A stretch of DNA of 32,071 nt from Flavonifractor plautii ATCC 29863 (lineage in GTDB: Bacteria; Bacillota; Clostridia; Oscillospirales; Oscillospiraceae), in NCBI RefSeq assembly GCF_000239295.1, contig NZ_JH417792.1, forward strand, positions 1 to 32,071, written 5' to 3'. Both the position numbers and the translations under genes were made by a program. The stretch's first letter is position 1. Every line of letters starts with the position of its first letter. The notes beneath the pieces were generated by a model, which was given only the letters and a program-made list of their open reading frames with translations, was not told the DNA's origin and did no database searches. This document shows positions 69 to 15,249 of the stretch, piece after piece.

Positions 69-102
69 AAAAAGTAAAAACACAAAAGAAAGGTGGACGG
101 AA

Positions 103-138
103 ATGGGCCACTTTTTCGGGGATGCGGAGTGGAGGTGA
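103..138 (+). CDS. Possible 11-residue leader peptide upstream of the small terminase
   Basis: ATG at 103 follows a good ribosome site (AAAGGTGG at about 89-96) and opens a short frame encoding MGHFFGDAEWR, ending at TGA 136-138. The stop lies inside the GGAGGTGAGGAGGG ribosome site of the next gene, so translation of the leader would bring ribosomes onto that site. This is visible layout only. It could equally be the chance tail of a degraded gene. Confidence 0.25.
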   Translation: MGHFFGDAEWR

Positions 139-150
139 GGAGGGAAACGC

Positions 151-438
151 GTGAAGAACGAGCGGGCACGGCTGCTGCGGAGGATGGAGCGGCTGGCAGG
201 TTGCAGAGTAAATGACGCGGTAAAGCTGGCGTTCCTGGACGGAGAACAGCTAGGAGAGATCGACGGGCTGGATCTGGGAGCGCTGAAGGAGTTCAAGCGC
301 AGCGGAAACGGCGCGGTGGAGCTGAAGCTGGTGGATCGGGCGGCCGTGCTGGAGCGGCTGGTGGAGCTGTCCGGCGGCCGGGAGGACGGGGCGGAGGAGT
401 TTTTCCGGGCGCTGCGGGAGAGCGCCGATGCGGTTTAG
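151..438 (+). CDS. Terminase small subunit-like protein, short form
   Basis: Predicted 95-aa protein starting at GTG 151. The in-frame stop at 136-138 rules out any longer version, and GGAGGTGAGGAGGG lies just upstream. The C-terminal half (ELKLVDRAAVLERLVELSGG, about residues 56-75) resembles the end of PBSX XtmA-type small terminases, where a beta strand and a helix contribute to oligomer assembly. The N-terminal helix-turn-helix half that recognises pac DNA in XtmA-type proteins (well over 200 aa) is absent. The small subunit normally regulates the large terminase and selects the DNA to be packaged. The gene overlaps the large terminase start by 11 bases, which fits coupled translation. 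Assignment rests on the C-terminal resemblance and the position. Lack of a DNA-binding domain would fit low packaging specificity, but that is inference. Confidence 0.7.
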   Translation: MKNERARLLRRMERLAGCRVNDAVKLAFLDGEQLGEIDGLDLGALKEFKRSGNGAVELKLVDRAAVLERLVELSGGREDGAEEFFRALRESADAV

Positions 439-1678
439 GGCCTTTTCCCGGCAGCAGAGGCGTGTGCTCACCTGGTGGTGTTCCGCCGAGGGGCAAAGCC
501 GGGAGGCGGTTATTTGCGACGGAGCGGTACGCAGCGGAAAGACCCTGTGCATGGGGCTGGCCTTCTTCCTGTGGGCCACGGCCTGCTTCGACGGCATGGC
601 CTTCGGGCTGTGCGGCAAAACCATCACGGCGCTGCGGCGCAACCTGCTGCGGGAGGTGCTGCCTACGCTGGGGGCGCTGGGGTTCCAGTGGAGGGAGCAG
701 GCATCCCAAAACCGGCTGACGGTACGGCTGGGCGGGAAGGAGAACACCTTCTACCTCTTTGGCGGCAGAGACGAGGGAAGCGCGGCCCTGATTCAGGGCA
801 TCACGCTGGCGGGGGTTCTGCTGGATGAGGCGGCCCTCATGCCCCGCTCCTTCGTGGAGCAGGCCTGCGCCCGGTGCTCCGTGCCGGGGAGCCGGATGTG
901 GTTCTCCTGCAACCCGGAGCACCCGGAGCACTGGTTTTACAAGGAGTGGATTTTAAAGGCGGAGGAGCGGCGGGCGCTCTACCTCCACTTCACCATGGAG
1001 GATAACCCGGCGCTGACGCCTCAGGTGCGGGAGCGGTACGCGCGCAGCTTCAGCGGCGCCTTCTACCGGCGGTTTGTGTTGGGGGAGTGGGTGGCCGCCC
1101 AGGGGCGGGTATACGATTTCTTCGACGAGAGCTGGGCGAGGCCCGTCCCGGTGGGCGGCATGGAGCGGTGGTGCATCTCCTGCGATTACGGTACGGTCAA
1201 CCCCACGTCCCTGGGGCTGTGGGGGCTGCGGGACGGAGTGTGGTACCGGGTGGCGGAGTCCTACTATGACGCCCGGGCCGAGGGGCGGCAGAGAACCGAC
1301 GGAGAGCACGCCGACGCCCTGGAGCGGCTGGCGGGGGGACGGCCCATCTGGAAGGTGGTGGCCGACCCGTCGGCGGCCAGCTTTATCGAGACCCTGCGCC
1401 GGCGGGGATGGCGGGTGGAAAAGGCCGACAACGACGTGTTGGCCGGTATCCGAACCACCGCCGAACTGCTGCGGCGGGGGAGGCTGGTGATCTGCCAGGG
1501 CTGCGCCGACGCCCTCCGGGAGTTTACCCTCTACTGCTGGGATGAGAAGGCCGGGGGCGACCGGGTAAAAAAAGTCCACGACCACGCCATGGACGACATC
1601 CGCTATTTTGCCGCCAGTGTTGCGGCGGGAGAGCGGGGGTACGTTGGAGGCCTGTGTGTGGAGCGGGGGCGGTTTTAG
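428..1678 (+). CDS. Phage terminase large subunit
   Basis: Predicted 416-aa packaging ATPase and nuclease that pumps DNA into the prohead and cuts it. The ATPase has a Walker A motif GAVRSGKT at residues 32-39 and a Walker B motif GVLLDEA at about 129-135, followed by the coupling segment FSCNPEHPEHWFY. The RNase H-like nuclease has candidate acidic residues D253 (ISCDYGT), D313 (VADPSA) and D389/D390 (HAMDDIRY). Every catalytic element is present and the length is normal for PBSX XtmB-type proteins, so the motor looks functional. It starts at ATG 428 inside the end of the small subunit gene. The portal gene follows after 36 bases, the usual packaging-module order. Confidence 0.95.
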   Translation: MRFRAFSRQQRRVLTWWCSAEGQSREAVICDGAVRSGKTLCMGLAFFLWATACFDGMAFGLCGKTITALRRNLLREVLPTLGALGFQWREQASQNRLTVRLGGKENTFYLFGGRDEGSAALIQGITLAGVLLDEAALMPRSFVEQACARCSVPGSRMWFSCNPEHPEHWFYKEWILKAEERRALYLHFTMEDNPALTPQVRERYARSFSGAFYRRFVLGEWVAAQGRVYDFFDESWARPVPVGGMERWCISCDYGTVNPTSLGLWGLRDGVWYRVAESYYDARAEGRQRTDGEHADALERLAGGRPIWKVVADPSAASFIETLRRRGWRVEKADNDVLAGIRTTAELLRRGRLVICQGCADALREFTLYCWDEKAGGDRVKKVHDHAMDDIRYFAASVAAGERGYVGGLCVERGRF

Positions 1679-1714
1679 CGCGGAGCGCGCCGCGGCAGAG
1701 GATGGGAGGAGAGC

Positions 1715-2875
1715 ATGGGTATATTTGCAAGGAAAAGAGAGAATGGGGCCGGGGCGGCGGTGCAGCTCCGGGAGGGGGGACGGCACCCCTTCGGCGTGCT
1801 GGACGGGTATGTGCCGCTGAGCCAGGGGGAGATGGAGCTCTACCGGAGCATACGGGAGGCCGTCCCCATTGTGGACGCCGCCCTGCGCAAGCTGGTGCGG
1901 CTGGCGGGCGGGGTCAAGGTGTCCTGCCGGGAGAGCGCTGCCCAGGAGGGGCTGGACTGGTTCCTCCAGCATGTGAACACCGGGCGCGGACAGAGGGGTA
2001 TCCAGTCCTTCCTGGACGGCTATCTGGACTCCATGCTCACCTTCGGCCGGGCGGTGGGGGAGATCGTCCCTGACCGGCGGGGCCGGGAGATCGCGGCGGT
2101 GCTGTGCGGCAACCCGGCGGACGTGGAGATTCGGGAGGGGGAGTCGCCGCTGGAGTTTACCCTGTGGGGAAGGAGTGGGGACGGGCAGCTCCGGGAGCTG
2201 CCCCGGCAGGAGCTGCTGCTCTTCACCCCCTTTCAGCCGGAGGTGGGCAGCCCCTACGGCGTGAGTCTGCTGCGGTCCATGCCCTTCCTGACCGGAATCC
2301 TGCTGAACATCTACCAGGCGATGGGGATGAACTGGGAGCGGATGGGCAACGTGCGCTTCGCGGTGGTCTACAAGCCGGGGGACGCGCCCCTGGAGCAGTC
2401 CATGGCCCAGGAGCGCAGCCGCCAGATCGCCCGGGAGTGGTCCGCAGCCATGGAGGCGGGGCGGGACGGCCGGGTGCGCGATTTTGTCGCCGTGGGCGAC
2501 GTGGACATCAAGGTGATCGGAGCGGACAACCAGGTGCTGGACAGCGAGGTGCCGGTGCGGCAGATTCTGGAACAGCTCGTGGCCCGGACGGGCATACCGC
2601 CCTTCCTGTTGGGATTGAGCTGGTCGTCCACCGAGCGGATGAGCACCCAGCAGGCCGACATGATGACCAGCGAGCTCACCGCCATCCGGCGGGGGCTGGA
2701 GCCTGTGGTGGAGCGTATCTGCGAGCTGTGGCTGGCCCTCCACGGGTACGACCGGAGGGTGACGGTGGATTGGGAGGACATCAACCTCCAGGATCTGGTC
2801 GAGGAGGCCCGCGCGGAGTTGTACCGCGAGCAGGCGGAGGAGCTGCGATTGGCGCGAGAGGGCAAAGAGGGCTGA
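1715..2875 (+). CDS. Phage portal protein
   Basis: Predicted 386-aa portal subunit, the dodecameric ring at the capsid vertex through which terminase moves DNA and to which the tail connector binds. Sequence features fit the PBSX XkdE/SPP1 gp6-like group: a mixed N-terminal domain, a central segment with LLLFTPFQPEVGSPYGVSLL, and a C-terminal helical region with FLLGLSWSSTERMSTQQADM followed by a charged helix rich in E, R and A. ATG 1715 is preceded by GGGAGGAGAG. The length is on the short side but complete. Its last 26 codons are repeated 220 bases downstream in a diverged copy, described separately. Confidence 0.9.
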   Translation: MGIFARKRENGAGAAVQLREGGRHPFGVLDGYVPLSQGEMELYRSIREAVPIVDAALRKLVRLAGGVKVSCRESAAQEGLDWFLQHVNTGRGQRGIQSFLDGYLDSMLTFGRAVGEIVPDRRGREIAAVLCGNPADVEIREGESPLEFTLWGRSGDGQLRELPRQELLLFTPFQPEVGSPYGVSLLRSMPFLTGILLNIYQAMGMNWERMGNVRFAVVYKPGDAPLEQSMAQERSRQIAREWSAAMEAGRDGRVRDFVAVGDVDIKVIGADNQVLDSEVPVRQILEQLVARTGIPPFLLGLSWSSTERMSTQQADMMTSELTAIRRGLEPVVERICELWLALHGYDRRVTVDWEDINLQDLVEEARAELYREQAEELRLAREGKEG

Positions 2876-3143
2876 AGAGTGCCGGCGCGGGCAGAGGAGA
2901 CCAGATCGGGGTCCCCGGGAAAGTGCGGAGCACTTTTCTGGGGAGAGGAGACGCAGCGGAAGGAGAGAGCCGCGCCGCAAGCGGCGCGGCGAGGGATCTG
3001 GAGCGTGTGGCGACGAGGTCGAGGAGGCCCGGGCGGAACTGTACCGTGAGCAGGCGGAGGAGCTGCGATTGGCGCGAGAGGGCAAAGAGGGCTGAAGAGT
3101 GTCGGCGCGGGCAGAGGAGACCAGATCGGGGCCACCGGGAAAG
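2797..3143 (+). repeat. Diverged direct duplication of the portal gene 3' end
   Basis: Bases 2797-2923 (last portal codons, stop and downstream sequence) recur at 3017-3143, offset exactly 220 bases. I count 7 differences in 127. The four differences before the stop are CGC/CGG, GAG/GAA, TTG/CTG and CGC/CGT, all synonymous in the portal frame. The second stop falls at 3093-3095. The spacer holds a small hairpin (AAAGTGC-GGA-GCACTTT, 2920-2936) and a strong GC hairpin (GCCGCGCCGC-AA-GCGGCGCGGC, 2969-2990). The whole 2876-3233 gap has no convincing gene of its own, unusual in an otherwise gapless operon. Confidence 0.85.
2920..2990 (+). other. Two hairpins in the portal-protease gap
   Basis: The first hairpin has arms 2920-2926 and 2930-2936 followed by TCTG, a weak terminator-like shape. 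The second has perfect 10-bp arms at 2969-2978 and 2981-2990. They could attenuate transcription, stabilise mRNA ends or be debris from an inserted intergenic repeat. The order of the surrounding genes argues that transcription must pass through this region. Confidence 0.5.
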
Positions 3144-3233
3144 AGCGGCGCGTCAGGGATGCCGCGCCCTACGGAGGGAGAGGGGCGGCTCGTCGGGGTA
3201 TAGGGCGCAGAGTAAGATGAGGGGAGCGATGGG

Positions 3234-4094
3234 ATGAACGTAAACAAGGAGGCGGGCGTGGACTGCGGGCTGGAGGTCAGCCCGGAGGAGCTAAAAGCGA
3301 TCAACGCCATGAGCAAAAAAAAGCTGCGGCCTGAGGAGGTATACGCCTTCGCGGTGCGGCTGTGCGACAATGAGATCGACCGGGACAACGAGCGGTTCCC
3401 GGCCGCTACCCTGGAGGAGCTGGCCCCCCTGTTTGTGGGCAGGAGCGGTCTGTTTGACCACCAGTGGAGCACCCGGAACCAGGCGGCCCGCATCTACCGA
3501 ACCGAGGTGGTGCGGGAGAGCTGGATGACGGAGGCGGGCGAGCCCTACTGCTATCTGAAGGGCTGCGCCTACCTCCTGCGCACCGAGGGAAACCGGGAGC
3601 TGATCGCCGCCATCGAGGGGGGGATCAAGAAGGAGGTCAGCGTGGGCTGCGCGGTGGAGCGGTCGGTGTGCTCCATCTGCGGCGAGGAGTTCCACACCTG
3701 CCCCCACGAGAAGGGGGCGGAGTACGGCGGCAGGCGCTGCTGGGCCGAGCTGGTGGGGGCCACCGACGCCTATGAGTGGTCCTTCGTGGCAGTGCCCGCC
3801 CAGAGAAACGCGGGGGTGATGAAGCACATGCGGATGGAGCAGGAGGCCGCCCTTGGGCGGAAATACCTGGAGAGCCTGCGCGGGGAGGTGGCCCGCCTGG
3901 GCGGCCTGGCCGGGCTGGGGCTGGAGCACGCCGTGCTCCGGGGCATCGCGGACAAGCTGGGCTATGACGAGCTGCTGGCCCTCAAGGGCGCGCTGGAGCG
4001 GCAGGCCGAGCGGGTGTTCCCGGTGGAGACCCAGCTGCGGTATGGCGGCGGGCGGGAGAACGACGGAGAGCGGGACGGGGCATTTTTGATCTGA
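3234..4094 (+). CDS. Prohead protease with embedded Cys/His cluster
   Basis: Predicted 286-aa HK97/XkdF-type maturation protease, possibly with a C-terminal scaffold-like segment. It would process the prohead during capsid assembly. Candidate catalytic residues are H76 (LFDHQWS) and S136 (KKEVSVGC), with the family-like strand EWSFVAVPAQRNAGVMK near residue 182 onward. Between them is a possible zinc cluster: C146, C149, C156, H158 and C169. Related clostridial prohead proteases, as I recall them, carry a similar insertion. The last 90 or so residues are helical and charged, as in scaffold delta domains. ATG 3234 is preceded by GAGGGGAG. The decoration gene follows. Confidence 0.85.
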   Translation: MNVNKEAGVDCGLEVSPEELKAINAMSKKKLRPEEVYAFAVRLCDNEIDRDNERFPAATLEELAPLFVGRSGLFDHQWSTRNQAARIYRTEVVRESWMTEAGEPYCYLKGCAYLLRTEGNRELIAAIEGGIKKEVSVGCAVERSVCSICGEEFHTCPHEKGAEYGGRRCWAELVGATDAYEWSFVAVPAQRNAGVMKHMRMEQEAALGRKYLESLRGEVARLGGLAGLGLEHAVLRGIADKLGYDELLALKGALERQAERVFPVETQLRYGGGRENDGERDGAFLI

Positions 4095-4138
4095 GCGGCC
4101 CCATGCGCAGAGAGGACAGAGGAGAAAGGAGAGGCAGC

Positions 4139-4489
4139 ATGAGCAGGATTTCATTTGAGGGAATTGGAGAGGTGGCGGCCACCTTTGCCTGCGGCGAAGG
4201 GGTAAAGGCGGGCCAGGTGGTGAAGCTCACCGGGGACGGCACCGTCGGCCCCTGCGGCGACGGCGAGCGCTTTTGCGGCGTGGCCCTGAGCGCCGGGGAG
4301 GGCTTCGCGGCGGTACAGCTGGGCGGGCTGATCCGGGTGGCCGCCAGCGGCGGCGCGCTCAGTGAGGGGTGGAACCGGCTGCTGGCCGACGGCTCCGGCG
4401 GCGTCCGGCCGGACAGCGCCGAGACGCCCACCGGCGGCGAATATCTGGTGGTGCGGGCGGAGAGCGGCGGCGCCGTCATCCGCCTGTGA
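4139..4489 (+). CDS. Capsid decoration/stabilisation protein (DUF2190-like)
   Basis: Predicted 116-aa beta-rich, glycine-rich protein. ATG 4139 was chosen because GGAGAAAGGAGAGG sits just before it. An earlier in-frame ATG at 4103 lacks such a site. The pattern of short strands (VAATFACGEGVKAGQVVKL, RFCGVALSAGEGFAAVQLGG) resembles the small DUF2190/gpD-like proteins that bind the outside of HK97-fold capsids and stabilise them. Placement between the protease and the major capsid protein is the usual place for such a gene. The function is assigned from fold-like pattern and context, not from a diagnostic motif. Confidence 0.7.
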   Translation: MSRISFEGIGEVAATFACGEGVKAGQVVKLTGDGTVGPCGDGERFCGVALSAGEGFAAVQLGGLIRVAASGGALSEGWNRLLADGSGGVRPDSAETPTGGEYLVVRAESGGAVIRL

Positions 4490-4508
4490 GAAAGGGAGGT
4501 ATGGAAAT

Positions 4509-5543
4509 ATGGGATATCGTTTTGACAACCTGAGACTGGAAAAGGGCATGTATAACGAGGCGGGCCGCTCCTTCACCCAGGTGCTGGAGCGGGAGGACCC
4601 CTCGGAGCAGTATAAGGGCACGGCGCTGGAGGGGCTGGACGCCTATCAGCGGCAGCTCAAGCGCTTTGACATCAAGGTGAAGGGCGCGGGCAGCGACGCG
4701 GTGGAGAAGTTCTTTGCCACCAGCCAGTCCGCCGTCCTCTTCCCCGAGTACATCGCCCGCTCCGTGCGGCAGGGCATGGAGGAGGCCAACCTCCTGCCCC
4801 ACATCACCGCCGCCGTCACCCGGTTTGACGGCATGGACTACCGCTCCATCGCCTCGGTGCCGGACGACGACCAGAGGGCCCTGCGCTGGGTGGAGGAGGG
4901 CGCCGCCATCCCCCAGACCCAGGTGAAAACCCAGGAGAATCTGGTGAAGCTCCACAAGCGGGGGCGGATGCTGGTGGCCTCCTACGAGGCCATCCGCTAT
5001 CAGAAGCTGGATCTGTTCTCGGTCACCCTGCGGCAGATCGGCGCCCACATCAACCGGATGCACCTGGAGGACGCCATCGAGGTGCTCCTCAACGGCGACG
5101 GCAACGACAACCCCGCCGAGGCCTTCACCGTGGGTACCGATCCCATCGGCGGCACCGCGGGCACCCTCACCTACGATGAGCTGGTGGACTTCTGGGGCCA
5201 GTTTGAGCCCTATGAGATGAACACCCTCCTGGTCAGCGGCGACATGATGCGCCAGATGCTCAAGCTGGAGGAGTTCCAGAACCCCCTGACCGGCCTCAAC
5301 TTCCAGGGCACCGGCAGGCTGGACACCCCTTTGGGCGCAGCTCTGCTGCGCACCTCCGCCCTGGGCGGCGGCACCCTCATCGGCCTGGACCGCCGCTACG
5401 CCCTGGAGATGGTGCAGGGCTCCGACGTGCTGGTGGAGTACGACAAGCTCATCGACCGACAGCTGGAGCGGGCCGCCATCACCAGCATCTCCGGCTTCGC
5501 CAAGCTGTTCACCGGCGCGGCCAAGGTGCTGAAGCTGAAATGA
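4509..5543 (+). CDS. Major capsid protein, HK97 fold
   Basis: Predicted 344-aa shell protein. ATG 4509 follows GGGAGGT at 4494-4500. The first 60 residues are charged and helical (possible N-terminal arm or delta segment). The body has typical HK97-fold capsid segments such as AVLFPEYIARSVRQGMEEAN, the strand block WVEEGAAIPQTQV, and a C-terminal LVEYDKLIDRQLERAAITS. It belongs with PBSX XkdG-like proteins of similar size. The stop overlaps the next start (ATGA). Nothing about the sequence looks truncated, so capsid assembly should be possible. Confidence 0.9.
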   Translation: MGYRFDNLRLEKGMYNEAGRSFTQVLEREDPSEQYKGTALEGLDAYQRQLKRFDIKVKGAGSDAVEKFFATSQSAVLFPEYIARSVRQGMEEANLLPHITAAVTRFDGMDYRSIASVPDDDQRALRWVEEGAAIPQTQVKTQENLVKLHKRGRMLVASYEAIRYQKLDLFSVTLRQIGAHINRMHLEDAIEVLLNGDGNDNPAEAFTVGTDPIGGTAGTLTYDELVDFWGQFEPYEMNTLLVSGDMMRQMLKLEEFQNPLTGLNFQGTGRLDTPLGAALLRTSALGGGTLIGLDRRYALEMVQGSDVLVEYDKLIDRQLERAAITSISGFAKLFTGAAKVLKLK

Positions 5544-5890
5544 CGGAGCAGATTATGGACATGGCCCGCAGCCTGGGGCATGTGGACGGGGGACAGGAGG
5601 AGGCGCTGGAGGCCCTGTGCCGTGCGGCTCAGGCGGAGCTGGCCGGGCGGCTGCGGCCGGAGGTGCGGTCGGAGGACTGCGAAGACGCCTTTATCCTGGC
5701 CTGCGCCTGGCTGGCCCTGGCGGGGCTGGCCGCCGGGGAGACCGGCGGCGGGCGGTTCACCGCCGGGGAGGTCACCATTCAGGAGGGGGACGGGGCGGCC
5801 CGGGCGGCCGCCCTCCGCCTCCAGGCCGAGACGGTGCTGGGCCCCTGGCTGGCCGACCGGGGGTTTGCCTTTCAGGGGGTACCGGGATGA
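5540..5890 (+). CDS. Head-tail connector protein (XkdH/gp6-like position)
   Basis: Predicted 116-aa mostly helical, acidic protein beginning at ATG 5540, which overlaps the capsid stop. Proteins of this size directly after the capsid gene normally form the connector ring beneath the portal. Visible features are an N-terminal helical half with CEDAFILACAWLALAGLA and a second half with FTAGEVTIQEGDGAARAAAL, as in other DNA-packaging connector proteins. No catalytic motif is expected. Assigned from size, composition and position. It shares an ATGA overlap with the next gene. Confidence 0.65.
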   Translation: MTEQIMDMARSLGHVDGGQEEALEALCRAAQAELAGRLRPEVRSEDCEDAFILACAWLALAGLAAGETGGGRFTAGEVTIQEGDGAARAAALRLQAETVLGPWLADRGFAFQGVPG

Positions 5891-6234
5891 CCGGGGCCTG
5901 GGGGCGGATTCTGGCGCGGTACGGGCAGAGCGTCACCCTGCGGCGGGGGGAGGAGGAACAGGACTGCCGGGCGTTTCTCCAGCCGGTGCGGGAGCGGCGG
6001 GAGGACTGGTACCAGGAGCTGCCCACTCCGCTGGGGACGGCGCGGCGGGATCAGTGGATCTATCTGGGGCCGCCGGAGCTTCCGCTGGAAGAGACGAACG
6101 GCCTGTGCGTGGAGTGGAACGGGCTGCGCTTTGCGGTGCGGGCGGCACAGCCCGTCTGCGTGGGGGAGGAGACGCTGTACTGGTGGGCCCTGCTGGCGGT
6201 GGAGGACGGAGAGGCGCAGACAGAGCAGACGTGA
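5887..6234 (+). CDS. Head closure / minor head protein (XkdI-like position)
   Basis: Predicted 115-aa protein, starting at ATG 5887 that overlaps the preceding stop. It has a short helix followed by alternating strands (SVTLRRGEEEQDCRAFLQPV, QWIYLGPPELPL, LRFAVRAAQPVCVGEETLYW). This resembles small beta-barrel head-completion stoppers that seal the connector after packaging. There is no diagnostic motif, so this is mainly a position call within the connector block. Confidence 0.6.
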   Translation: MTGAWGRILARYGQSVTLRRGEEEQDCRAFLQPVRERREDWYQELPTPLGTARRDQWIYLGPPELPLEETNGLCVEWNGLRFAVRAAQPVCVGEETLYWWALLAVEDGEAQTEQT

Positions 6235-6246
6235 GGGGGAAAACAC

Positions 6247-6735
6247 TTGGATTTTCAGGCGGTGCGGGAGCAGATGGCGGCGTTCCTGAGACAGCAGGGG
6301 GTGGACGCGGTATGCGCCTACCCGGAGGAGCGGCGGCGGCAACGGAGCGGGCCGGTGGCCGCCGTATCCCTGCGGGCCTGTCAGGGCGGGCCGGGCGGCT
6401 TTCGGGATTACCTGGGGGAGCGGTACGACGAGAGCAACGGCCGGTGGCAGGAGCTGTACGGCCGGAGGGCGACCCTCACCTTCGGGCTGGACCTCTATGG
6501 AGAGAGCGCTGGGGAGCTCCAGACGGCCTACGACCGGATGGCGGAGGCATTTCAGTGGGAGGGACCCGCCGGGCTGGCGCTGCGGGAGCTCTCCTGCGGG
6601 GAGACGGAATTTGACCGGGCGGCCGGCCTCTACCGCAGGGCGGTGACGGCGGTGTGTCAGGGATACCTGTACGCCGTAGCCGACGAGGGCGGCACTTTCC
6701 TGGACTTTGTTGTGAGAGGAGAGGGACATCTATGA
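6247..6735 (+). CDS. Tail completion/terminator-like protein
   Basis: Predicted 162-aa protein starting at TTG 6247, seven bases after GAGGGGGA; a later ATG at 6274 lacks a good ribosome site. The composition is a mix of helix and strands, with LTFGLDLYGE and LYRRAVTAVCQGYLYAVADE. Immediately upstream of the sheath gene, this slot is normally filled by the tail terminator or head-tail joining protein that caps the tail tube. The stop overlaps the sheath start by four bases. The specific role is inferred from position. Confidence 0.6.
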   Translation: MDFQAVREQMAAFLRQQGVDAVCAYPEERRRQRSGPVAAVSLRACQGGPGGFRDYLGERYDESNGRWQELYGRRATLTFGLDLYGESAGELQTAYDRMAEAFQWEGPAGLALRELSCGETEFDRAAGLYRRAVTAVCQGYLYAVADEGGTFLDFVVRGEGHL

Positions 6736-7766
6736 GCGTGACAAACCATGAGCGGCCGGGGGTATACTCCCGGTACGACGCATCCACGGTGGTGAAAGGC
6801 CGCGGCGGCGGCCGGTGCGTGGGACTGGCGGCCCTGTGCGGCACAGGAACGGCGGGAACGCTCTACACCTTTAACCGCTATGAGGAGGCGGTGACCGCCT
6901 TCGGCGGAGAGGAAACGCTGACGGAGCTGGTGCAGCTGCTGTTCCTCAATGGCGCGGCCCAGGTCAAGGCGGTGCCGGTGGCCGAAGAGGCGGGCTACAA
7001 GGCGGCCTTTTCGGTGCTGGAAGCGGCGGAGGACATCGCAGTGGTGGTGTGCGACAGCGGCGAGCTGACCGTGCAGCAGGCCCTGCGGGACAGCGTGAAG
7101 GCCGCCTCTGAAGCGCGGCGAGAGCGCATCGCCGTGGTGGGCGGCAAGGCGGGGGAGAATGCCACAGCCCTGGTTCAGCGGGCCGAGGGGCTCAACAGCG
7201 AGCGGGTGGTGCTCACCGCCCCGGTGGGAGAAGGCGGCGGCGCGGCGGTGGCCGCGGCAGTGGCGGGAGCCATCGCCGGGGAGAGCGACCCGGCCATTCC
7301 CCTGGGCGGCGCGGAGCTGAAAGGCGTGGACGGGCTGGAGGCCCGGTATGGGGATACGGAGATCGACACCCTGGTGCGGGGCGGGGTCACCCCGGTGGAG
7401 CAGGCGGCCGGGGTGGTCAGCGTGGTGCGGGGCGTGACCACCCGCACCAAGACCGGAGAGGCGGCGGACGCCACCTGGCGGGAGCTGACCACCATCCGCA
7501 TCGTGGACGACGTGATCCCCACCGTGCGCGACGCCCTGCGTGCCCGGTTCCGCCGGGCCAAGAACACCGAGCAGAGCCGGGGGGCCATCCGCTCCCAGGT
7601 GGTGCTGGAGCTGGAAAACAAGCTGGCGCGGGAGATCATTACCGGATACGGCGAGGTCTCCGTAGAGGCCGATGCGGACAACCCCACGGTGTGTCTGGTG
7701 GATTTTTCCTTTACCGTGGCCCATGGGCTCAACCAGATCTGGCTGAGCGCGCATATCACTGTGTGA
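6732..7766 (+). CDS. Contractile tail sheath protein
   Basis: Predicted 344-aa sheath subunit (XkdK-like), the part that shortens during contraction and drives the tube through the target envelope. It begins SVTNHERPGVYSRYD, the usual sheath opening with a GVY strand. It ends with the conserved core ARFRRAKNTEQSRGAIRSQV, LVDFSFTVAHGLNQIWLSAHI. The start at 6732 overlaps the preceding stop. It is shorter than typical sheaths of 400 or more residues, and the difference lies in the variable surface domains, not in the C-terminal core. Its presence makes this a contractile system. Confidence 0.9.
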   Translation: MSVTNHERPGVYSRYDASTVVKGRGGGRCVGLAALCGTGTAGTLYTFNRYEEAVTAFGGEETLTELVQLLFLNGAAQVKAVPVAEEAGYKAAFSVLEAAEDIAVVVCDSGELTVQQALRDSVKAASEARRERIAVVGGKAGENATALVQRAEGLNSERVVLTAPVGEGGGAAVAAAVAGAIAGESDPAIPLGGAELKGVDGLEARYGDTEIDTLVRGGVTPVEQAAGVVSVVRGVTTRTKTGEAADATWRELTTIRIVDDVIPTVRDALRARFRRAKNTEQSRGAIRSQVVLELENKLAREIITGYGEVSVEADADNPTVCLVDFSFTVAHGLNQIWLSAHITV

Positions 7767-7785
7767 GAATGGGGGAGGAAGGAAC

Positions 7786-8175
7786 ATGAAGGTTGCGGGA
7801 TTTCCAACCAGCAGCGACATCTATCTGGAGGTGGACGGCAAAAAGGTGGCGGTGGTGCAGAGCTATACCGCCAAGTCCAGCCGTACCAGCCAGACCGTGG
7901 AGGCCTTCGGCGAGGACGAGCCGGTGGCCACCATACCGGGCCAACGTACCCACGTCATCGAACTGACCCGGCTGTACGCCACCGATGAGGCCATCCGGGA
8001 CGGGCTGAACTTCCATGCGCTGGAGGACTTCAGCCTGGTCATCTGCAAGCCGGACCGGAAGATCATCTACTCCGGCTGCCAGTGGAGCTCCATCGGCGAG
8101 ACCGGCGCGCTGGGGGCCATGGTGGTGGAGAAGATCACCATCGTAGCGGCCAGGCGGATTGAAACGGCGGTGTGA
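7786..8175 (+). CDS. Tail tube protein
   Basis: Predicted 129-aa inner tube subunit (XkdM-like). ATG 7786 follows GGGGGAGGAAGG. It has the beta-barrel pattern expected for tubes of contractile tails: IYLEVDGKKVAVVQSYTAK, THVIELTRLYAT, FSLVICKPDRKIIYSGCQW and a final VEKITIVAARR strand. Hexamers stack inside the sheath, normally along a tape-measure protein that sets the length. Sheath followed by tube is the standard order. Length and composition are normal. Confidence 0.85.
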   Translation: MKVAGFPTSSDIYLEVDGKKVAVVQSYTAKSSRTSQTVEAFGEDEPVATIPGQRTHVIELTRLYATDEAIRDGLNFHALEDFSLVICKPDRKIIYSGCQWSSIGETGALGAMVVEKITIVAARRIETAV

Positions 8176-8176
8176 T

Positions 8177-8587
8177 ATGCTGGAGAGACGGGAACGGCTG
8201 AAGCTGGAGGACGGGAGGGAGCTGCGGCTTCTCTCCGCCCTGGAGGTGCTGGAGGCCCGCCGGGAGGCGGAGGGGCTGGCCCGGGGGGAGGCGGAGGCCG
8301 CCCTGTGCGCCAACGCCTGCCTGCTGGCCCGGGCGCTGGAGCGGGGCGGACAGCCGGTGTTCGCGGACGGCGGGGCGGCTCTGGCGGGGCTGAGCGCCCG
8401 GGAGATCGGGGCGCTGGCGGGCCGGTGGGCCGCCTTTGACCGGGCGGAAAACCCCTCCCCCGAGGACGGGGAGGAGCGGCTGGAAGGGTTAAAAAAAGCC
8501 TGGAGCACGCGCCCTATGAGCGTCTTCGCTGGCGCGTGCTCCAACGCTTTGGCGCGCTTCCGACGGAGGAGCGGGCCAAACAGATGA
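8177..8587 (+). CDS. Tail assembly chaperone, short (G-like) form
   Basis: Predicted 136-aa acidic helical protein starting at ATG 8177, two bases after the tube gene. In most long-tailed phages the gene between tube and tape measure makes a chaperone in two forms, a short G form and a longer G-T form reached by programmed frameshifting, which hold the tape measure soluble before tube polymerisation. This gene contains an A7 run at 8491-8497 followed by a strong hairpin, described separately. If ribosomes do not slip they continue to TGA 8585-8587. The residues after the A7 run are basic (the end reads ALARFRRRSGPNR) and unlike the rest. Confidence 0.8.
   Translation: MLERRERLKLEDGRELRLLSALEVLEARREAEGLARGEAEAALCANACLLARALERGGQPVFADGGAALAGLSAREIGALAGRWAAFDRAENPSPEDGEERLEGLKKAWSTRPMSVFAGACSNALARFRRRSGPNR
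8491..8542 (+). promoter_or_regulatory. Programmed -1 ribosomal frameshift signal
   Basis: The slippery heptamer A AAA AAA occupies 8491-8497, with zero-frame codons AAA (8492-8494) and AAA (8495-8497). After a four-base spacer, a stem of 12 perfect base pairs is formed by GGAGCACGCGCC (8502-8513) and GGCGCGTGCTCC (8531-8542) with a 17-base loop. A -1 slip leads into the open frame that ends at 8793. Slippery heptamer, short spacer and stable stem are the textbook parts of bacterial and phage -1 sites, as in lambda G/T. Confidence 0.9.
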
Positions 8588-8793
8588 AGGCGCGGGACTA
8601 TCTCTGGTGCGCCCTCCACCTGGCGCTGGACCGGGAGGAGGAGCTGGCGCGGCTGTGTCCCGCCTGCCGAAGCGAGGCGGCGGAGGAGCGGTGCCCGGCC
8701 TGCGGCGCGCTCCGGACAGAGACGGCGGCGGGGCAGAACGCGGCCTTTGACGAGGCGCGGTTTGAACGGCTGAAACGGGGGGAGAGCGGTTGA
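8497..8793 (+). CDS. Tail assembly chaperone extension (T-like), reached by -1 frameshift, with zinc-ribbon cysteines
   Basis: This frame gives 98 residues after slippage; joined to the 107 codons from 8177 it makes a 205-aa G-T fusion. The segment runs LEHAPYERLRWRVLQRFGAL and then REEELARLCPACRSEAAEERCPACG. Two CPxC pairs ten residues apart form a likely zinc ribbon. A GTG at 8536 could in theory start it alone, but it lies within the hairpin and has no ribosome site, so fusion is the better reading. The T part of such chaperones contacts the tape measure or tube. The stop overlaps a TTG start of the next gene. Confidence 0.75.
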   Translation, partial: SLEHAPYERLRWRVLQRFGALPTEERAKQMKARDYLWCALHLALDREEELARLCPACRSEAAEERCPACGALRTETAAGQNAAFDEARFERLKRGESG

Positions 8794-9350
8794 CGGACTA
8801 TATCGCGGTATTGCTGGCACAGCAGGAGGAGCAGGAACAGGGCGAGGCCCCGGAGCTGGAGACCGGCCCCCTGACGGTATGGCTGGAGGAGAATACGCGG
8901 CCCGCAGAGGCCGCAGCAGCGCGGCGCAGAGTGGAGCAGGACGAGGCCGGCGCGTGTGCCGGACCGGGTGCGGTGATAGGGAACCGATATGTGCCGGAGG
9001 CCCCGGTCGGGGACTCCAGCGGACAGCCATCGGACCGGGGAGCGAAGCAGTGGGCAGACGGCCTCCAGACCGCCGGTACGTTGGAGACGGCGGGAAAAAT
9101 GGGGGAGCGGACGGCTCAACCGGCCCGGCCGGAGCACACCGCAGAATACCGGAGCGGGTCAGGGGTGGCCTGGCTCGACGGTCTGGTGCGCAGGAGCATG
9201 GAGCGGGAGTGGAGCGGCGGAACGGAGAGGCGGGTGGTGACGGTGGAGCAGTACGGCGGAGCGGTGGGCGCTCCGGCGGAGGCCGAGGCGCTGGACCGGC
9301 TGTTTCGCCGGGACGCCCGGCGGTATGATGGGGGGTTCCGGCTGCTGTGA
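8790..9350 (+). CDS. Unrecognised 186-aa protein in the tape-measure position
   Basis: The protein starts at TTG 8790, overlapping the chaperone stop (TTGA), with GGGGGGAGAG upstream. It is hydrophilic, with an acidic N-terminus (QQEEQEQGEAPELE), a low-complexity middle rich in G, A, P, S, T, R and E, and a C-terminal helix-like part (VAWLDGLVRRSMEREW). No transmembrane segment, lytic domain or known motif was recognised. In PBSX and relatives this place holds xkdO, a tape-measure gene of well over 1000 codons. If this protein is the tape measure, at roughly 0.15 nm per residue it would give a tail of under 30 nm. It could instead be an unrelated chaperone or capsid-tail factor. Confidence 0.55.
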   Translation: MTDYIAVLLAQQEEQEQGEAPELETGPLTVWLEENTRPAEAAAARRRVEQDEAGACAGPGAVIGNRYVPEAPVGDSSGQPSDRGAKQWADGLQTAGTLETAGKMGERTAQPARPEHTAEYRSGSGVAWLDGLVRRSMEREWSGGTERRVVTVEQYGGAVGAPAEAEALDRLFRRDARRYDGGFRLL

Positions 9351-9919
9351 GATTGGCTTCCATGCGGTACAAGGACTATGTATGGCCCCACAACCCGCGG
9401 GTTTACACCATTGAATATAAGCGGACTATGGGGGCGCGAAAGGTGCCCTTCGGGCGCTACCACCTCCAGGATCTGGGCCCCGCCCAGCGGGTCATGCGGG
9501 GCGAGGGGGAATTCGTGGGCGAAGGGGCCTACGGGGAGTTTAAGAAGCTGGCTACCGTATTCTACGCCGGGGGACCGGGGCTGCTGGTTCACCCGGTTTG
9601 GCAGACCTCCAACGCCTACTTTGTGGAGCTCTCACTCCGGCAGGAGCCCAGGGCGGACTATGTGGGGTATTCCTTTGCTTTCTGGGAGGGATACGACGGA
9701 CACAGCACCGGCGTACAGGTGACCGGGGGCGGAGGAGAACCGGAGACAGGCCCGGCCGCCGGTACGGCGGGGGAGCGGCGGCACACGGTGCGCCAGGGGG
9801 AGACCCTGTGGGGGATCGCCCGGGATTACGGACTCAGCCTGACCGAGCTCATCGCCCTCAATCCCCAGATTAAAAATCCAAACCTGATTCTGGCAGGGGA
9901 GGAGGTGCGCCTGGCGTGA
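9347..9919 (+). CDS. LysM-domain baseplate/tail protein (XkdP-like)
   Basis: Predicted 190-aa protein. GTG 9347 overlaps the previous stop and is correctly spaced from the GGGGGG at 9331-9336; ATG 9362 is an alternative. The first 120 or so residues match the XkdP-type N-terminal domain (a PRVYTIEYKRTMGARKVPFG start). After a Gly-rich linker, residues about 145-190 form a LysM domain: HTVRQGETLWGIARDYGLS, then NPQIKNPNLILAGEEVRL. The LysM part binds glycan chains in peptidoglycan-related contexts and may anchor the baseplate. In PBSX this gene follows the tape measure, which supports the reading of the preceding slot. Confidence 0.85.
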   Translation: MRLASMRYKDYVWPHNPRVYTIEYKRTMGARKVPFGRYHLQDLGPAQRVMRGEGEFVGEGAYGEFKKLATVFYAGGPGLLVHPVWQTSNAYFVELSLRQEPRADYVGYSFAFWEGYDGHSTGVQVTGGGGEPETGPAAGTAGERRHTVRQGETLWGIARDYGLSLTELIALNPQIKNPNLILAGEEVRLA

Positions 9920-10857
9920 TGCGGGGAGAACTGCTGTGCTGGGATGGGCGGCGCATCCGCCTGCCCGACGCGGTGGAGTGGCAGTTTCAATACGGCTGCG
10001 GCACGCCCTGCGACAGCTTTCAGCTCACCTGCCTGTGGGAGCCGGACAGCGGGAACGACCTGACCGAGGCGGTGAGCTTTACGGCGGAGGAGAACGGGGA
10101 ACGGCTCTTCACCGGCGTGGTGGACGAGTGCGAGCGGGGCTGGGACACCGCGGGGGGCACCCTTACCGTGGCGGGCCGGGGAATGGCCGCCCGCCTGCTG
10201 GACAACGAGGCGCTGGGGGCAGACTACCAGGTGGCCACTGTTGAGGATATCCTGCGGGACCACGTGGCCCCCTACGGCATTGAGATCGTGCGGGGGGCGG
10301 AGCTGCCGCCGGTGCCGGGCTTCTCGGTGGACGCGGGGAGCAGCGAGTGGCAGGTGGTCTATGAATTCTGCCGCTATTACGGGGGAATTGCCCCCCGGTT
10401 TGACCGGCTGGGGCGGCTGGTACTGGCCCCCTGGGAGGAGGGGCGGCGGCTGGTGCTGGGGGCGGACGCGGCGGTGACGAGCTTCCGCCTGCGGGAGCAG
10501 CGCTACGGGGTGCTCTCCGAGGTGCTGGTGCGGGACCGCACCACAGAGGAGGTTCAGCGGGTGGCGGACGAGGACTTCCTGCGCCGGGGCGGCCGGTGCC
10601 GCCGTGTGCTCACCATGCCGGGAAAGAGCAGCTATCAGGCCATGCGCTATTCAGGGGCGTATCAACTGGCCCGCGCCCGGGAAGAGCTGCGGCAGGCAGA
10701 GTTGGAGCTGCCGGAGGCCTTTGCCGCGTGGCCGGGGGAACTGGTGGAGCTCAACCTGGCCAAGGGGACGGGACGGGGCCTCTGGCGGGTACGGGAGAGC
10801 GTATGCGGCCTGACGGCGGCGGGAACCTACACCCGGCTGACGCTGGGGGAGCCATAG
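9916..10857 (+). CDS. Baseplate hub protein (gpD/XkdQ-like late control protein)
   Basis: Predicted 313-aa hub protein of contractile tails. It starts at GTG 9916 (overlapping the LysM stop) or ATG 9919, both after GGGGAGGAGG. Early strands include FQLTCLWEPDSG and RLFTGVVDECERGWD with TVAGRGMAARLLDNEALG. A middle part has YEFCRYYGGIAPRFDRLG, and a C-terminal part has LVELNLAKGTGRGLWRVRES. These are typical for the gp27-like/XkdQ family that forms the trimer at the end of the tube and connects it to the spike. The length is close to that of PBSX XkdQ. No lysozyme domain is attached. Confidence 0.8.
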   Translation: MMRGELLCWDGRRIRLPDAVEWQFQYGCGTPCDSFQLTCLWEPDSGNDLTEAVSFTAEENGERLFTGVVDECERGWDTAGGTLTVAGRGMAARLLDNEALGADYQVATVEDILRDHVAPYGIEIVRGAELPPVPGFSVDAGSSEWQVVYEFCRYYGGIAPRFDRLGRLVLAPWEEGRRLVLGADAAVTSFRLREQRYGVLSEVLVRDRTTEEVQRVADEDFLRRGGRCRRVLTMPGKSSYQAMRYSGAYQLARAREELRQAELELPEAFAAWPGELVELNLAKGTGRGLWRVRESVCGLTAAGTYTRLTLGEP

Positions 10858-10872
10858 CGGAGGAGTGGTTTT

Positions 10873-11241
10873 ATGTGGATTTCGGAGCAGGGGCGGAGAA
10901 GGACAGAGCCGGACGGAACAGCACTGGTGGGCCGGGTCACCTTGCCCGGCGACCCGGCCGGGGTGTATCTGGCCGGAGAGCGGCGGGAGCTGCCCGTGTT
11001 TGGCCCGGGCGGCTATGTGTGGCGGCCGGAGGAGGGCGAGCAGGTGCTGGTGCTCAAGACCGGTCAGGCGGGAGAGGCCCCCTGTGTGGCCGGCCAGGCC
11101 TGCGGGCAGGACTGGAACCTGGCGGCGGGCGAGGTGCTCATCTACAGCGGTTCGGCCTCCATTCGCATCGGCGGCGGGGGTATCCGGCTGACCGGAGATG
11201 TGCTGGTCAACGGCAAGCCGGTGCTTACAGGGGAGGGCTGA
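10873..11241 (+). CDS. Baseplate spike-like protein (gpV/gp5 OB-fold type, short)
   Basis: Predicted 122-aa protein starting at ATG 10873, eight bases after GGAGGAG. The opening TALVGRVTLPGDPAGVYLAG and the turn YVWRPEEGEQVLVLKTG resemble the OB-fold of gpV-like spike proteins. The end has repeated short strands with glycines (YSGSASIRIGGGGIRLTG), like a minimal beta-helix tip. It would form the point that touches or punctures the target. It is smaller than many gpV proteins and shows no metal-binding HxH tip. PBSX has XkdR here, so the relation may be distant. Confidence 0.65.
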   Translation: MWISEQGRRRTEPDGTALVGRVTLPGDPAGVYLAGERRELPVFGPGGYVWRPEEGEQVLVLKTGQAGEAPCVAGQACGQDWNLAAGEVLIYSGSASIRIGGGGIRLTGDVLVNGKPVLTGEG

Positions 11242-11243
11242 GC

Positions 11244-11588
11244 GTGGAACTAATGGTGCGGAACGGCGACTACGTCAGCGACGGCGCGGGTGGCTTCCTG
11301 CGGGCGGAAGGGACGGACGAGCTGCTGCAGCGGGTGTTGTGGAAGCTGTCCATCCCGCGGGGGAGCTTTCCGCTGCTGCCTGCGCTGGGCAGTGAGCTCC
11401 ACCGGCTCGGCCGGGCCAAGCCCGCTGAGCGGGCCGGACTGGCCCGGCAGTATGTGGCCCAGGCACTTTCCGATGAGGCGGAGCTGTCGGTGGCCGGGGT
11501 GGAGCTGTCAGCAGAGGGAGAACTGACGGTCGAGCTGGACTGGCGGGGCGAGGCGCTCCGCCTGATACTTGGGACGGGAGGCGTATGA
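11244..11588 (+). CDS. Baseplate wedge protein, gp25-like (XkdS-like)
   Basis: Predicted 114-aa protein starting at GTG 11244, three bases after the previous stop and eight bases after GGGGAGGG. The segment IPRGSFPLLPALGSELHRLG, then LARQYVAQALSDEAELSV and ELTVELDWRGEALRLIL, follows the gp25/XkdS pattern, with the conserved turn that starts sheath assembly at the baseplate. Length is normal for the family. It overlaps the space just before the gpJ-like gene, the usual order. The protein is structural despite the old lysozyme-like name of the family. Confidence 0.75.
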   Translation: MELMVRNGDYVSDGAGGFLRAEGTDELLQRVLWKLSIPRGSFPLLPALGSELHRLGRAKPAERAGLARQYVAQALSDEAELSVAGVELSAEGELTVELDWRGEALRLILGTGGV

Positions 11589-11592
11589 CGGG

Positions 11593-12653
11593 ATGACGGT
11601 GGAGGAGCTCTACGGGCAGATGGTGGACACCTTTCAGCGGGAGACAGGGATGGCGCTGGCCGGGGACGGAGACATGGCGGTGCGACTTTACGCCGTGGCG
11701 GCCCAGCTCTACGCCCTGTATGTGCAGGCCGACTGGGTGGGGCGGCAGTGCTTCCCCCAGACGGCCCAGGGGGACTACCTGGACAAGCATGCTCAACTGC
11801 GGGGGCTGGAGCGCCGGGCGGCCACAGCGGCGGTCGGGGTGCTCTCCTTTGAGACGGACCATCCGCCGGAGGCCGATCTGAGCATCCCGGAGGGGACGGT
11901 ATGCATGACGGCGGCCCAGGTGCGCTTTGAGACCACCGAGGCGGGCGTTTTAAAGGCGGGGCAGACCCCGCCCAGGTGCGGGCCAGAGCGGTGGAGCCGG
12001 GCGCGGGGGGAAATGCGGCGGTCGGGACGGTGCGGGCCATGGCGGTGGCGCCGGGGGGGGTGAGCCGGTGCACCAATCCTGAGGCCTTTTCCGGAGGACT
12101 GGATGCCGAGGGGGACGAGAGCCTGCGGGAGCGGGTGCTGGAGACCTTTCGGCGGATGCCCAACGGGGCCAACGCCGCCTTTTACCAGCAGGAGGCCCTC
12201 TCCTTTCCGGAGGTGGCGGCGGCTACCGTGGTGGCGCGGCCCCGGGGCGTGGGGACGGTGGACGTGTTTCTTGCCACGGCGGCGGGGCTGCCCGACAGCG
12301 GGCTGCTGGAACAGGTGGCGGCCCATCTGGAGGAACGCCGCGAAATCGCCGTGGATGTTCAGGTGAAGGCGCCGGAGGTAAGGACGGTGGATGTGTCAGT
12401 TCAGGTGGCGGCCCGGCCGGGGGCGGACTTTAACACCGTCCGGCAGGCGGTGGAGTCCGCCGTGCGAGGCTGGTTTGACGGGCGGCTCTTGGGGCAGAGT
12501 GTCCTGCGGGCCCAGCTGGGGGCGCTGATCTTCGGGGTGGAGGGCGTGGAGAACTACGCCCTCACCGCCCCGGCGGCCGATGTGGCGGCAGCGGTGGACG
12601 AGCTGCCACAACTGGGCACACTGACGGTAGCGGCACTGGAGGGGACGGCATGA
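11593..12653 (+). pseudogene. Baseplate J-like protein (XkdT-like), reading frame interrupted by one base
   Basis: The gene starts at ATG 11593 (after GGGAGG) and reads as a gpJ/XkdT wedge protein: MTVEELYGQMVDTFQRETG and the LDKHAQLRGLERRAATAA motif. It loses frame at about 11966-11972, after VLKAGQT, and ends early at 12063. The -1 frame from about 11967 restores the family sequence (RARAVEPGAGGNAAVGTV and then PEAFSGGLDAEGDESLRERV), continuing to 12653. Adding one C to the CCCC at 11966-11969 would make a single frame of 353 aa. The break sits in a perfect 7-bp GC hairpin (955-961 with 966-972 of the 11,000 block), a typical place for replication slippage or a sequencing error. Both halves are otherwise intact. 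Confidence 0.8.
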
Positions 12654-13219
12654 GCTACGGGGCATACCTCAGGGAGCTGCTCCGGCCCCTGCGTATCTAT
12701 GGGCTGGAGGGCACCGCCAATGGCGGTGAGCTGGAGGCCCAGGGGAAGGCGCTGGATGGGGTAGAGGCCGCCATGGAGGAGGTACAGCGGGAGATGCTGA
12801 TCTGCACCGCAGAGGGACGGGGGCTGGAGGCCGTCGAGGCACTGCTGGCCCGAAAGCCGGTAGCTGCCAGCCTGGAGCGGCGGCGGGCGGCGCTGGCCGC
12901 CCTGCTGCGCATCGGCGGGGACAGCTTTACCTTGACGGCGATCAACGATAATCTAAAAGGCTGCGGTCTCAACGCCGTGGCCAGCGAGACGGAAACGCCC
13001 GGCGTTGTGGAGGTGCGGTTCCCCGATGTACCAGGCATCCCGGACGGGTTTGAATCAATGAGGGCCATCCTGGAAGATATTCTGCCCTGCCATCTGGACA
13101 TACGGTATGTCTACTGGTACATCACCTGGGCCCTCATGGAGGATCGCTTTGCCACCTGGGGAGACATTGAGAAGCTGGGGCCCACCTGGGAGGAGCTGGA
13201 GAAGATGGTGCGGGACTAG
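12650..13219 (+). CDS. Tail protein I-like baseplate protein (XkdU/YmfQ, DUF2313-like)
   Basis: Predicted 189-aa protein whose ATG 12650 overlaps the gpJ-like stop. The N-terminal half is helical (YLRELLRPLRIYGLEG), followed by RRRAALAALLRIGGDSFTLT and the domain typical of XkdU/YmfQ, ending PCHLDIRYVYWYITWALME. These proteins form the outer baseplate and normally connect to tail fibres encoded next. Here no fibre gene follows: the stop at 13219 is only 15 bases before a perfect palindromic terminator. This is the last gene of the particle operon. Confidence 0.8.
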   Translation: MSYGAYLRELLRPLRIYGLEGTANGGELEAQGKALDGVEAAMEEVQREMLICTAEGRGLEAVEALLARKPVAASLERRRAALAALLRIGGDSFTLTAINDNLKGCGLNAVASETETPGVVEVRFPDVPGIPDGFESMRAILEDILPCHLDIRYVYWYITWALMEDRFATWGDIEKLGPTWEELEKMVRD

Positions 13220-13233: not shown

Positions 13234-13269
13234 AAAAATGCCTGGAACCATATGGTTCCAGGCATTTTT
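13234..13269. terminator. 36-bp perfect palindrome, bidirectional terminator
   Basis: Each half is 18 bases (AAAAATGCCTGGAACCAT and its exact reverse complement), with five A at one end and at least five T at the other, so both strands read as stem plus U-tract. It lies between the end of the phage-particle operon on + (13219) and the end of the SLH gene on - (13285). It can terminate both convergent operons. Confidence 0.9.
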
Positions 13270-13284
13270 TGCTTAAAAGGGAGC

Positions 13285-15240: not shown

Positions 15241-15249
15241 GGAATCACC

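Follow-up and report, generated by a model that had tools for sequence, protein, structure and literature searches.

Genes for a contractile-tailed particle in Flavonifractor plautii: a probable domesticated gene transfer agent

An operon of about 20 co-directional genes for DNA packaging, head, contractile tail and baseplate occupies positions 151-13219 (plus strand) of a contig of Flavonifractor plautii ATCC 29863, and is quite probably the structural part of a domesticated, vertically inherited gene transfer agent (GTA) with a short contractile tail. The stretch of DNA analysed, referred to as the window, comprises all 32,071 bases of contig C176 in the 3.82-Mb draft genome of this strain (code G000). 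Functions were assigned from the open reading frames (ORFs), from PHROG and Pfam matches and, for the small genes, from position, bearing out the packaging and capsid module and the contractile tail and baseplate genes recognised in a preliminary description of the locus. That description had also proposed a DNA-packaging particle kept by the host, which now finds support in the conservation of the operon in relatives, a host-like tree, low ratios of non-synonymous to synonymous substitution (dN/dS) and the dispersal of fibre and lysis genes over other loci. The genomes compared carry G-codes, and families are designated f1, f22 and f24, the latter two being further families of the order; L175 is a relative from IMG/VR with 98% DNA identity to F. 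plautii ATCC 29863.

Inheritance of the operon

A sheath gene was found in all 18 genomes of the genus of at least 80% completeness, that of the strain itself included. It occurs once per genome, except for genes split by a contig end or indels in G004 and G015 and for G017, which shows no more than part of the gene where a contig stops. Gene order is identical in 17 genomes of the genus besides the strain's own (G004, G014, G015 and G017 being cut by contig ends) and in 17 loci from other genera of the family (G065, G063 and G052 cut), with some small genes undetected in the divergent family loci. In 14 genomes of the genus, counting the strain's own, the same PadR gene lies downstream; in G011, G014, G015 and G017 the contigs stop before its position, that of G011 after 2.6 kb. 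Within the genus, capsid proteins share 89-91% identity with that of the strain, compared with 91-93% for full-length pyruvate carboxylase. In the family, a capsid profile was positive in 171 of 399 genomes, covering 35 of 72 genera, with one match in each positive row; among the 390 genomes of good quality, 166 were positive. The order-wide search found 123 positives among 396 genomes in three families, two matches being present only in G601, G656 and G692. Presence in relatives, suggested earlier as a check, is universal in the genus but patchy over the family.

Quick trees were built for 37 genomes from TerL, portal, capsid and prot4 on the one side and host RecG, as the single host marker, on the other; G029, G051 and G642, which lack a usable RecG locus, and G535, which lacks TerL, were left out. 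The two trees share 21 of 34 splits, whereas shuffling of the labels left 0.18 shared splits on average and never more than 2, and shuffling confined to families 2.8 on average and never more than 8. The phylogeny, put forward as a check in the preliminary description, comes out host-like. Families f1 and f22 are each recovered as a clade whichever tree is used, whereas f24 is a clade in that of RecG only. The operon and RecG distances are correlated (0.89 overall; f1, 0.918; f24, 0.754; f22, 0.962).

Pairwise Nei-Gojobori medians within the genus, taken without the gene for the 186-residue protein, gave low dN/dS values of 0.11-0.42 for the operon genes tested (TerL, 0.154; capsid, 0.140; tube, 0.110; sheath, 0.253), a sign of purifying selection, dN/dS being another of the checks proposed in that description. 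Among the controls, pyruvate carboxylase gave 0.094 and RecG 0.306, a range that also includes PadR and the dehydrogenase, and three other neighbouring genes gave 0.43-0.68. Vertical, selected domestication of the operon is well supported.

Relatives of the capsid and sheath among phage records are few: the capsid protein matches just 8 of 50,697, five of which are unannotated faecal scaffolds, two of these being taken for bacterial chromosome, and the sheath matches 4. Two 'Bacteriophage sp.' records from human faeces, MT835508 (L255) and MT835769 (L256), are bacterial chromosome scaffolds to judge from their ORFs, and carry relatives of the operon, MT835508 its head part only. In IMG/VR, 305 of 341 stretches with relatives are listed as viral; among the 80 loci kept, 18 have numbers that we take, from the numbering convention, to denote isolate genomes, and 13 of these are 12.5-14.4 kb long, that is, the operon alone.

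Packaging, tail and distal genes

The packaging enzyme appears active. Walker B and the three nuclease aspartates of TerL are kept in all of 49 genomes (50 rows, one genome being represented twice) and Walker A in all rows but one, where it is gapped. The nearest PDB entry, 5oe8, is entitled 'Large subunit terminase' and is presumably the terminase of the deep-sea thermophilic phage D6E, whose TerL is 47.2% identical. Unlike D6E, a phage with a full-length TerS of 299 residues, the strain has a TerS of only 95 residues, compared with 253-299 in three phages with a related TerL. The phage proteins show N-terminal helix-turn-helix (HTH)-like stretches (by eye), and the short TerS aligns only to residues 206-281 of D6E TerS (probability 47.5, E 1.9e-4), its model giving nothing significant in a Foldseek search of the PDB. 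Judged from this alignment, TerS is reduced to the C-terminal part of the phage protein. In the GTA of Rhodobacter type (RcGTA), the loss of the TerS HTH is held to explain random packaging (PMC6854486). Here too, TerL may package general host DNA because TerS seems to have no sequence-reading domain.

In the tail assembly chaperone, a slippery heptamer is followed just 3' by a 13-bp hairpin (region fold z -3.65), and a -1 shift yields a 212-residue product. The heptamer was present in all 23 split-frame loci, 45 nt before the first called codon of the second part, and in 3 further loci the chaperone is one fused frame. The earlier statement that the window holds no tape measure needs correction, the slot being filled by a very short, mostly disordered protein of 186 residues, with conserved ends, a disordered middle (AlphaFold pLDDT 57) and, in relatives in which its limits could be set, a length of 134-289 residues (G068, G065 and G029 left out). 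If this protein acts as the ruler, the tail would be very short. The baseplate gene gpJ is split over two frames in ATCC 29863 but uninterrupted in L175 and in 31 of the 32 loci tested, the break being strain-specific or a sequencing error. In the sheath gene, the frame is disrupted or the contig broken at the same part in G015 (contig C10) and G004 (C1/C38), the G004 contig ending in an inverted duplication; both oddities look like assembly trouble or decay.

Fibre and lysis genes, whose scattered presence had been put forward as a check, were found at unlinked loci. A fibre-like protein follows gpI in 2 of 17 family genomes (G071 and G065, the latter with a CBM_5_12 match) and in other relatives. 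Its Flavonifractor homologue lies at an unlinked site in 16 of 19 genomes (not G000, G015 and G755), and a relative of the G071 type was not found in the strain's own genome. The unlinked gene is part of a cassette of fibre, M15 endolysin and small holin in G001, G003, G008, G011 and G012 and, by coordinates, in G754; in the remaining regions read, it is either solitary or accompanied by further genes of tail, amidase or reverse-transcriptase type. A 62-residue holin-like gene, with one match in each of 16 of the 19 genomes, has, in the regions read, no lysis genes nearby outside those six and was not counted as a lysis gene there. No XhlA-family holin exceeded the cut-off in the 19 genomes. 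The strain's own distal locus (contig C112) encodes a small protein, a 377-residue regulator with HTH and sigma-region-4 matches, a 227-residue fibre-like protein, recognised by eye and without a Pfam match, an adjoining M15 peptidase and a PF05105 holin. Close homologues of the regulator (E at most 1.4e-107) are present in 12 of 19 genomes of the genus, own included, three having two copies, and G755 has a fragment. By sequence clustering, the 15 regulator neighbourhoods contain a relative of the own holin in ten cases and an amidase-type gene in eight, Pfam having been run on the G000 and G006 proteins only.

In relatives, a promoter-proximal motif is common to these loci and the operon. A 26-bp weight matrix was derived from 17 sites located 59-60 bp before TerS, the species being represented by the identical site of L175, and was applied to genus loci totalling 1.26 Mb, among which loci of interest are overrepresented. 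Beyond the training sites it found the promoters of the regulator pairs and fibres and one G001 site (22.2) before an unrelated-looking gene, the remaining matches being chance-like (13.8 and below). In the unselected genomes, a 20-bp form of the motif gave, at no more than two mismatches, 54 matches in 18 of 19 genomes, the reversed control giving 6. Of the 54, 16 stand in front of TerS and 9 each in front of regulator pairs and of fibres, the distance being 67-112 bp for seven of the fibre sites and about 350 bp for the other two. The remaining 20 lie elsewhere, and include sites before tail/amidase/holin cassettes (G004, G013), RepA_N and IstB-like pairs and short ORFs, ambiguous sites and two sites in G755. 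In 15 other loci of the family, the best site lies 59-68 bp before TerS in G051, G043, G020, G071 and G031 (scores 16.9, 14.4, 16.2, 11.7 and 4.5, respectively); G055 has its best site (16.0) at 216 bp, and the rest score below 5. A multi-locus regulon is supported in relatives, and more weakly in the strain's own genome. By taking into account the 20 matches elsewhere and the two distant fibre sites, it is possible that such a regulon does not serve the particle only.

Two kinds of gene pair behind the motif deserve mention in their own right. A RepA_N and IstB-like ATPase pair follows directly in four genomes (L429 4329-5498; G016, contig C10; G010, C151; G006, C31; Pfam assignment made on one pair), an arrangement suggestive of a replication-like module within the regulon. 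At G013:C13 and G014:C4 (L427, L435), the site precedes a minor-head-like or small protein and then a second small protein (by eye), a pair that could be particle-linked cargo.

With these components, the proposed sequence of events is as follows. Under some growth condition, the HTH/sigma-like regulator would switch on all loci, probably in few cells; particles would assemble and TerL would load the heads with host DNA in general; the producer cell would be lysed by holin and endolysin; and CBM-type fibres would bind relatives, into which the contractile tail would deliver the DNA.

The window and its flanks

The features of the operon are collected in table 1.

Table 1. Operon features in the window, with the matches or other grounds for each assignment (PWM, position weight matrix; E-values follow family names).
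Feature	Position	Strand	Basis
Promoter-proximal motif, imperfect dyad, genus consensus CGGTGTACGNAAACNNNCAACTTTTG	91-116	+	PWM score 28.6
TerS-like small terminase, 95 residues, without N-terminal part of phage TerS	151-438	+	
Large terminase TerL	428-1678	+	phrog_2 1.6e-47, Terminase_6N; PDB 5oe8 3e-127
Portal protein	1715-2875	+	phrog_30703 9e-159
phrog_16951 protein, probably prohead protease/scaffold (from position)	3234-4094	+	match 3e-112
Small head/decoration-type protein	4103-4489	+	phrog_4588 1.5e-17
Major capsid protein	4509-5543	+	phrog_3922 3.6e-113, Phage_capsid_4
Head-tail connector (by position)	5540-5890	+	no family match; order conserved
Head closure-type protein (by position)	5887-6234	+	no family match; order conserved
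Tail completion-type protein (by position)	6247-6735	+	phrog_25177 (unknown function) 3e-40
Contractile tail sheath	6726-7766	+	phrog_279 9.4e-46, Phage_sheath_1/1C
Tail tube (by position, after sheath)	7786-8175	+	phrog_27038 (unknown function) 2e-63
Tail assembly chaperone (by position), two frames	8159-8793	+	slippery A AAA AAA 8491-8497, hairpin 8501-8543
186-residue protein, tape-measure slot	8790-9350	+	conserved ends, disordered middle
LysM tail protein (XkdP-like)	9347-9919	+	LysM 1.4e-12
Baseplate hub	9916-10857	+	phrog_177 1.1e-37
gpV-like spike/OB protein	10873-11241	+	phrog_25991 (unknown function) 4.7e-22; Phage_base_V 0.072
gp25/gpW-like baseplate wedge	11238-11588	+	phrog_975 3.6e-7
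Baseplate gpJ, frame interrupted in ATCC 29863 assembly only	11569-12653	+	Baseplate_J 4.6e-37
gpI-like tail protein	12650-13219	+	phrog_521 4.2e-20
Terminator: stem GCCTGGAACC-ATAT-GGTTCCAGGC, then T6	13240-13270		sequence

The terminator reported earlier after the gpI-like gene is plain in the sequence, although the terminator scan of the window missed it; the promoter scan returned nothing upstream of TerS. The likeness of base composition and codon use to the neighbouring genes, previously judged by eye, was confirmed (GC content, 0.686 in the operon versus 0.657 downstream; codon usage, r = 0.957). Chromosomal genes follow, including by Pfam those for PadR, a 2-hydroxyacid dehydrogenase, pyruvate carboxylase and RecG. 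Beside the PadR gene, on the minus strand at 13883-18235, lie tandem paralogous genes for small, fast-evolving proteins (one with a dN/dS of 0.681), whose copy number differs among relatives. Around the 3' end of the portal gene, repeats of about 220 bp were seen (2797-3148 in the window; several copies at 7043-8054 of L175); Tandem Repeats Finder did not report this array in the window, but segments of 2789-2876 reappear on further contigs of the same genome.

No integrase, repressor or replication gene was recognised by eye beside the operon, no integrase among the ORFs of the window as a whole, and no tRNA gene was present in it. The earlier claim that the window contains no integrase, repressor or replication gene stands in so far as the neighbourhood of the operon is concerned, but a 72-residue XRE-like HTH protein is encoded at 31567-31785, 18 kb away (by eye). 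The contig begins 150 bp upstream of the operon, the strain's own left flank being absent from the assembly. About 4.2 kb of further left flank in L175 are without recognisable phage genes (by eye), and the left flanks of G016, G012 and G009 showed neither an integrase nor a lysis cassette (by eye), host genes for single-strand-binding protein, ribosomal protein S6 and RNase J being confirmed in left flanks. The prophage cassette that was to be looked for on the left was thus not seen in three genus flanks, bar an XRE-type HTH gene 6 kb upstream of the operon in G009; in G071 such genes lie on both sides (by eye). In L175 a tyrosine integrase gene (18256-19428), absent from the window, starts directly after the operon terminator and apparently belongs to a separate insertion using the terminator region as its site.

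Alternatives, known particles and implications

Several observations weigh against a domesticated GTA, for which particles, packaging of host DNA and its transfer are predicted from gene content. Presence over the family is patchy, and some genera (g91, g42, g40 and g101) include members both with and without the operon. Thirteen of the 34 splits differ between the trees, those of f24 above all; odd composition was flagged in nine rows of the operon tree, and a single marker represents the host. The homology of TerS to D6E TerS is weak, and TerL has relatives in 588 phage records, 2 of them above 60% identity. The strain's own genome contains no motif match at up to two mismatches and a poor site at the distal locus, the TerS site scoring well with the matrix, while in the genus more than a third of the matches lie elsewhere, some before pairs of the RepA_N/IstB type, and two fibre sites are distant. 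The gpJ frame is broken in the ATCC 29863 assembly and the sheath is disrupted in G015; the strain's own clade may be decaying, or these breaks may be assembly errors.

Among the alternatives, a killer particle like PBSX of Bacillus, selected for killing relatives and packaging host DNA as a by-product, is unlikely but has the most in its favour. PBSX has a contractile tail and the gene order TerS-TerL-portal-protease-capsid-sheath-tube-chaperone-(slot)-LysM-hub-baseplate, which the Flavonifractor operon resembles in both respects, down to LysM, hub and baseplate, and variable fibre and lysis cassettes acting in trans would suit a killer as well. PBSX also has a full tape measure (XkdO), its own regulation and its own lysis cassette; the Flavonifractor locus has neither regulation nor lysis genes of this kind, and the slot protein remains far shorter than a PBSX-type ruler throughout the relatives. 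Against a killer particle, the head and packaging genes, capsid and TerL in particular, rank with the most constrained, and head genes persist at loci that have neither sheath nor tube, the latter point being weakened by the fact that the regions were found by the capsid gene. An R-type tailocin, defined by the absence of head and packaging genes, does not correspond to the complete head module found here.

It is quite improbable that a domesticated particle delivers something other than general host DNA, either one chosen locus or a protein cargo, a view to which the motif-linked pairs of G013 and G014 lend some colour, but which the active-looking residues of TerL and the truncated TerS would not favour. 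Finally, a prophage, whether ordinary or in decay, that is cut off where the contig stops is extremely improbable, for although the gpJ frameshift, the viral listing of relatives in IMG/VR, the missing left flank, the L175 integrase and the XRE-type genes of G009 and G071 would agree with it, the constant PadR gene downstream, the host-like tree, single copy and low dN/dS and the presumed isolate-genome loci consisting of the operon alone argue otherwise.

A domesticated GTA with a contractile tail agrees with several of the traits by which GTAs are delimited in PMC9662315: the particle proteins are caudoviricete-derived; the system is endogenised over several loci, the distal link being given here by the motif in relatives and by gene types; and inheritance is vertical with co-diversification with the host, as seen with one host marker and a patchy presence. 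Further traits given there are capsids filled with mostly random host DNA, which the reduced TerS would suit indirectly, a head too small for the genome encoding it, and delivery of DNA to other cells. RcGTA (Rhodogtaviriformidae) is likewise endogenised over several loci, co-diversified with its host and equipped with a TerS without HTH domain (PMC9662315, PMC6854486), but it is alphaproteobacterial, of separate origin and without sheath, its tail being of the siphovirus type (PMC9022992) and 49 nm long (PMC9662315).

Closer at hand is FpGTA of Faecalibacterium, reported in 2026 and, according to PMC12946183, podovirus-like without a visible tail, with a head and packaging operon and a second operon for fibre, holin and endolysin. 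It shares with the Flavonifractor system the order Oscillospirales, a TerS without obvious DNA-binding domain, the division into one head and packaging operon and a distal fibre/holin/endolysin operon and, to judge from its accession numbers, apparently just one gene separating portal from capsid, an arrangement also seen where f24 loci lack the small head gene. It differs, compared by description, in being tail-less, the Flavonifractor operon having a sheath, a tube (by position) and a full baseplate. By analogy FpGTA would work in the same way as proposed here, and its head may be common by descent with that of the Flavonifractor operon. No contractile GTA of Oscillospiraceae or Flavonifractor was found in the open-access literature, in agreement with the preliminary description, the tail-less FpGTA being the system described in the order.

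Intermediate forms were seen in 20 regions from f22 and f24, all picked by the capsid gene, so that head-less loci would be invisible. Five f24 loci (G661, G706, G574, G671 and G561) carry the complete contractile operon with its gene order unchanged; five f22 loci (G525, G093, G540, G515 and G535) have head, LysM/hub and baseplate genes without sheath, although G535 and G540 gave weak matches to the tube; eight (G745, G689, G642, G724, G100, G541, G573 and G702) have head genes only, with or without hub or LysM; and G730 and the second locus of G601 are partial. An argument that the tail was lost before the head was dropped because of the capsid-based choice of regions. The head-plus-hub loci resemble the FpGTA I layout as published (PMC12946183). 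A wider proposal stands at about an even chance: a single GTA lineage, at first with a contractile tail, would have been present in the ancestor of Oscillospirales and co-diversified with at least three families, sheath, tube and then baseplate being lost in branches to give FpGTA-like forms, with the Flavonifractor regulon under an HTH/sigma-like activator. The direction of tail loss is deduced, the comparison being unrooted.

GTAs are few and mostly alphaproteobacterial. If the proposal is true, host-run DNA exchange would be an inherited trait of common gut commensals across a major order of anaerobes. In human stool, GTA-like packaging was reported for Oscillospiraceae (Onthomonas), the GTA operon being described only for Faecalibacterium (PMC12946183); an Oscillospirales GTA lineage would account for such packaging without a recognised operon. 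The graded series of contractile, baseplate-only and head-only loci would help in asking what a DNA-delivery particle minimally needs, and virus-database entries of this operon type would be host genes.

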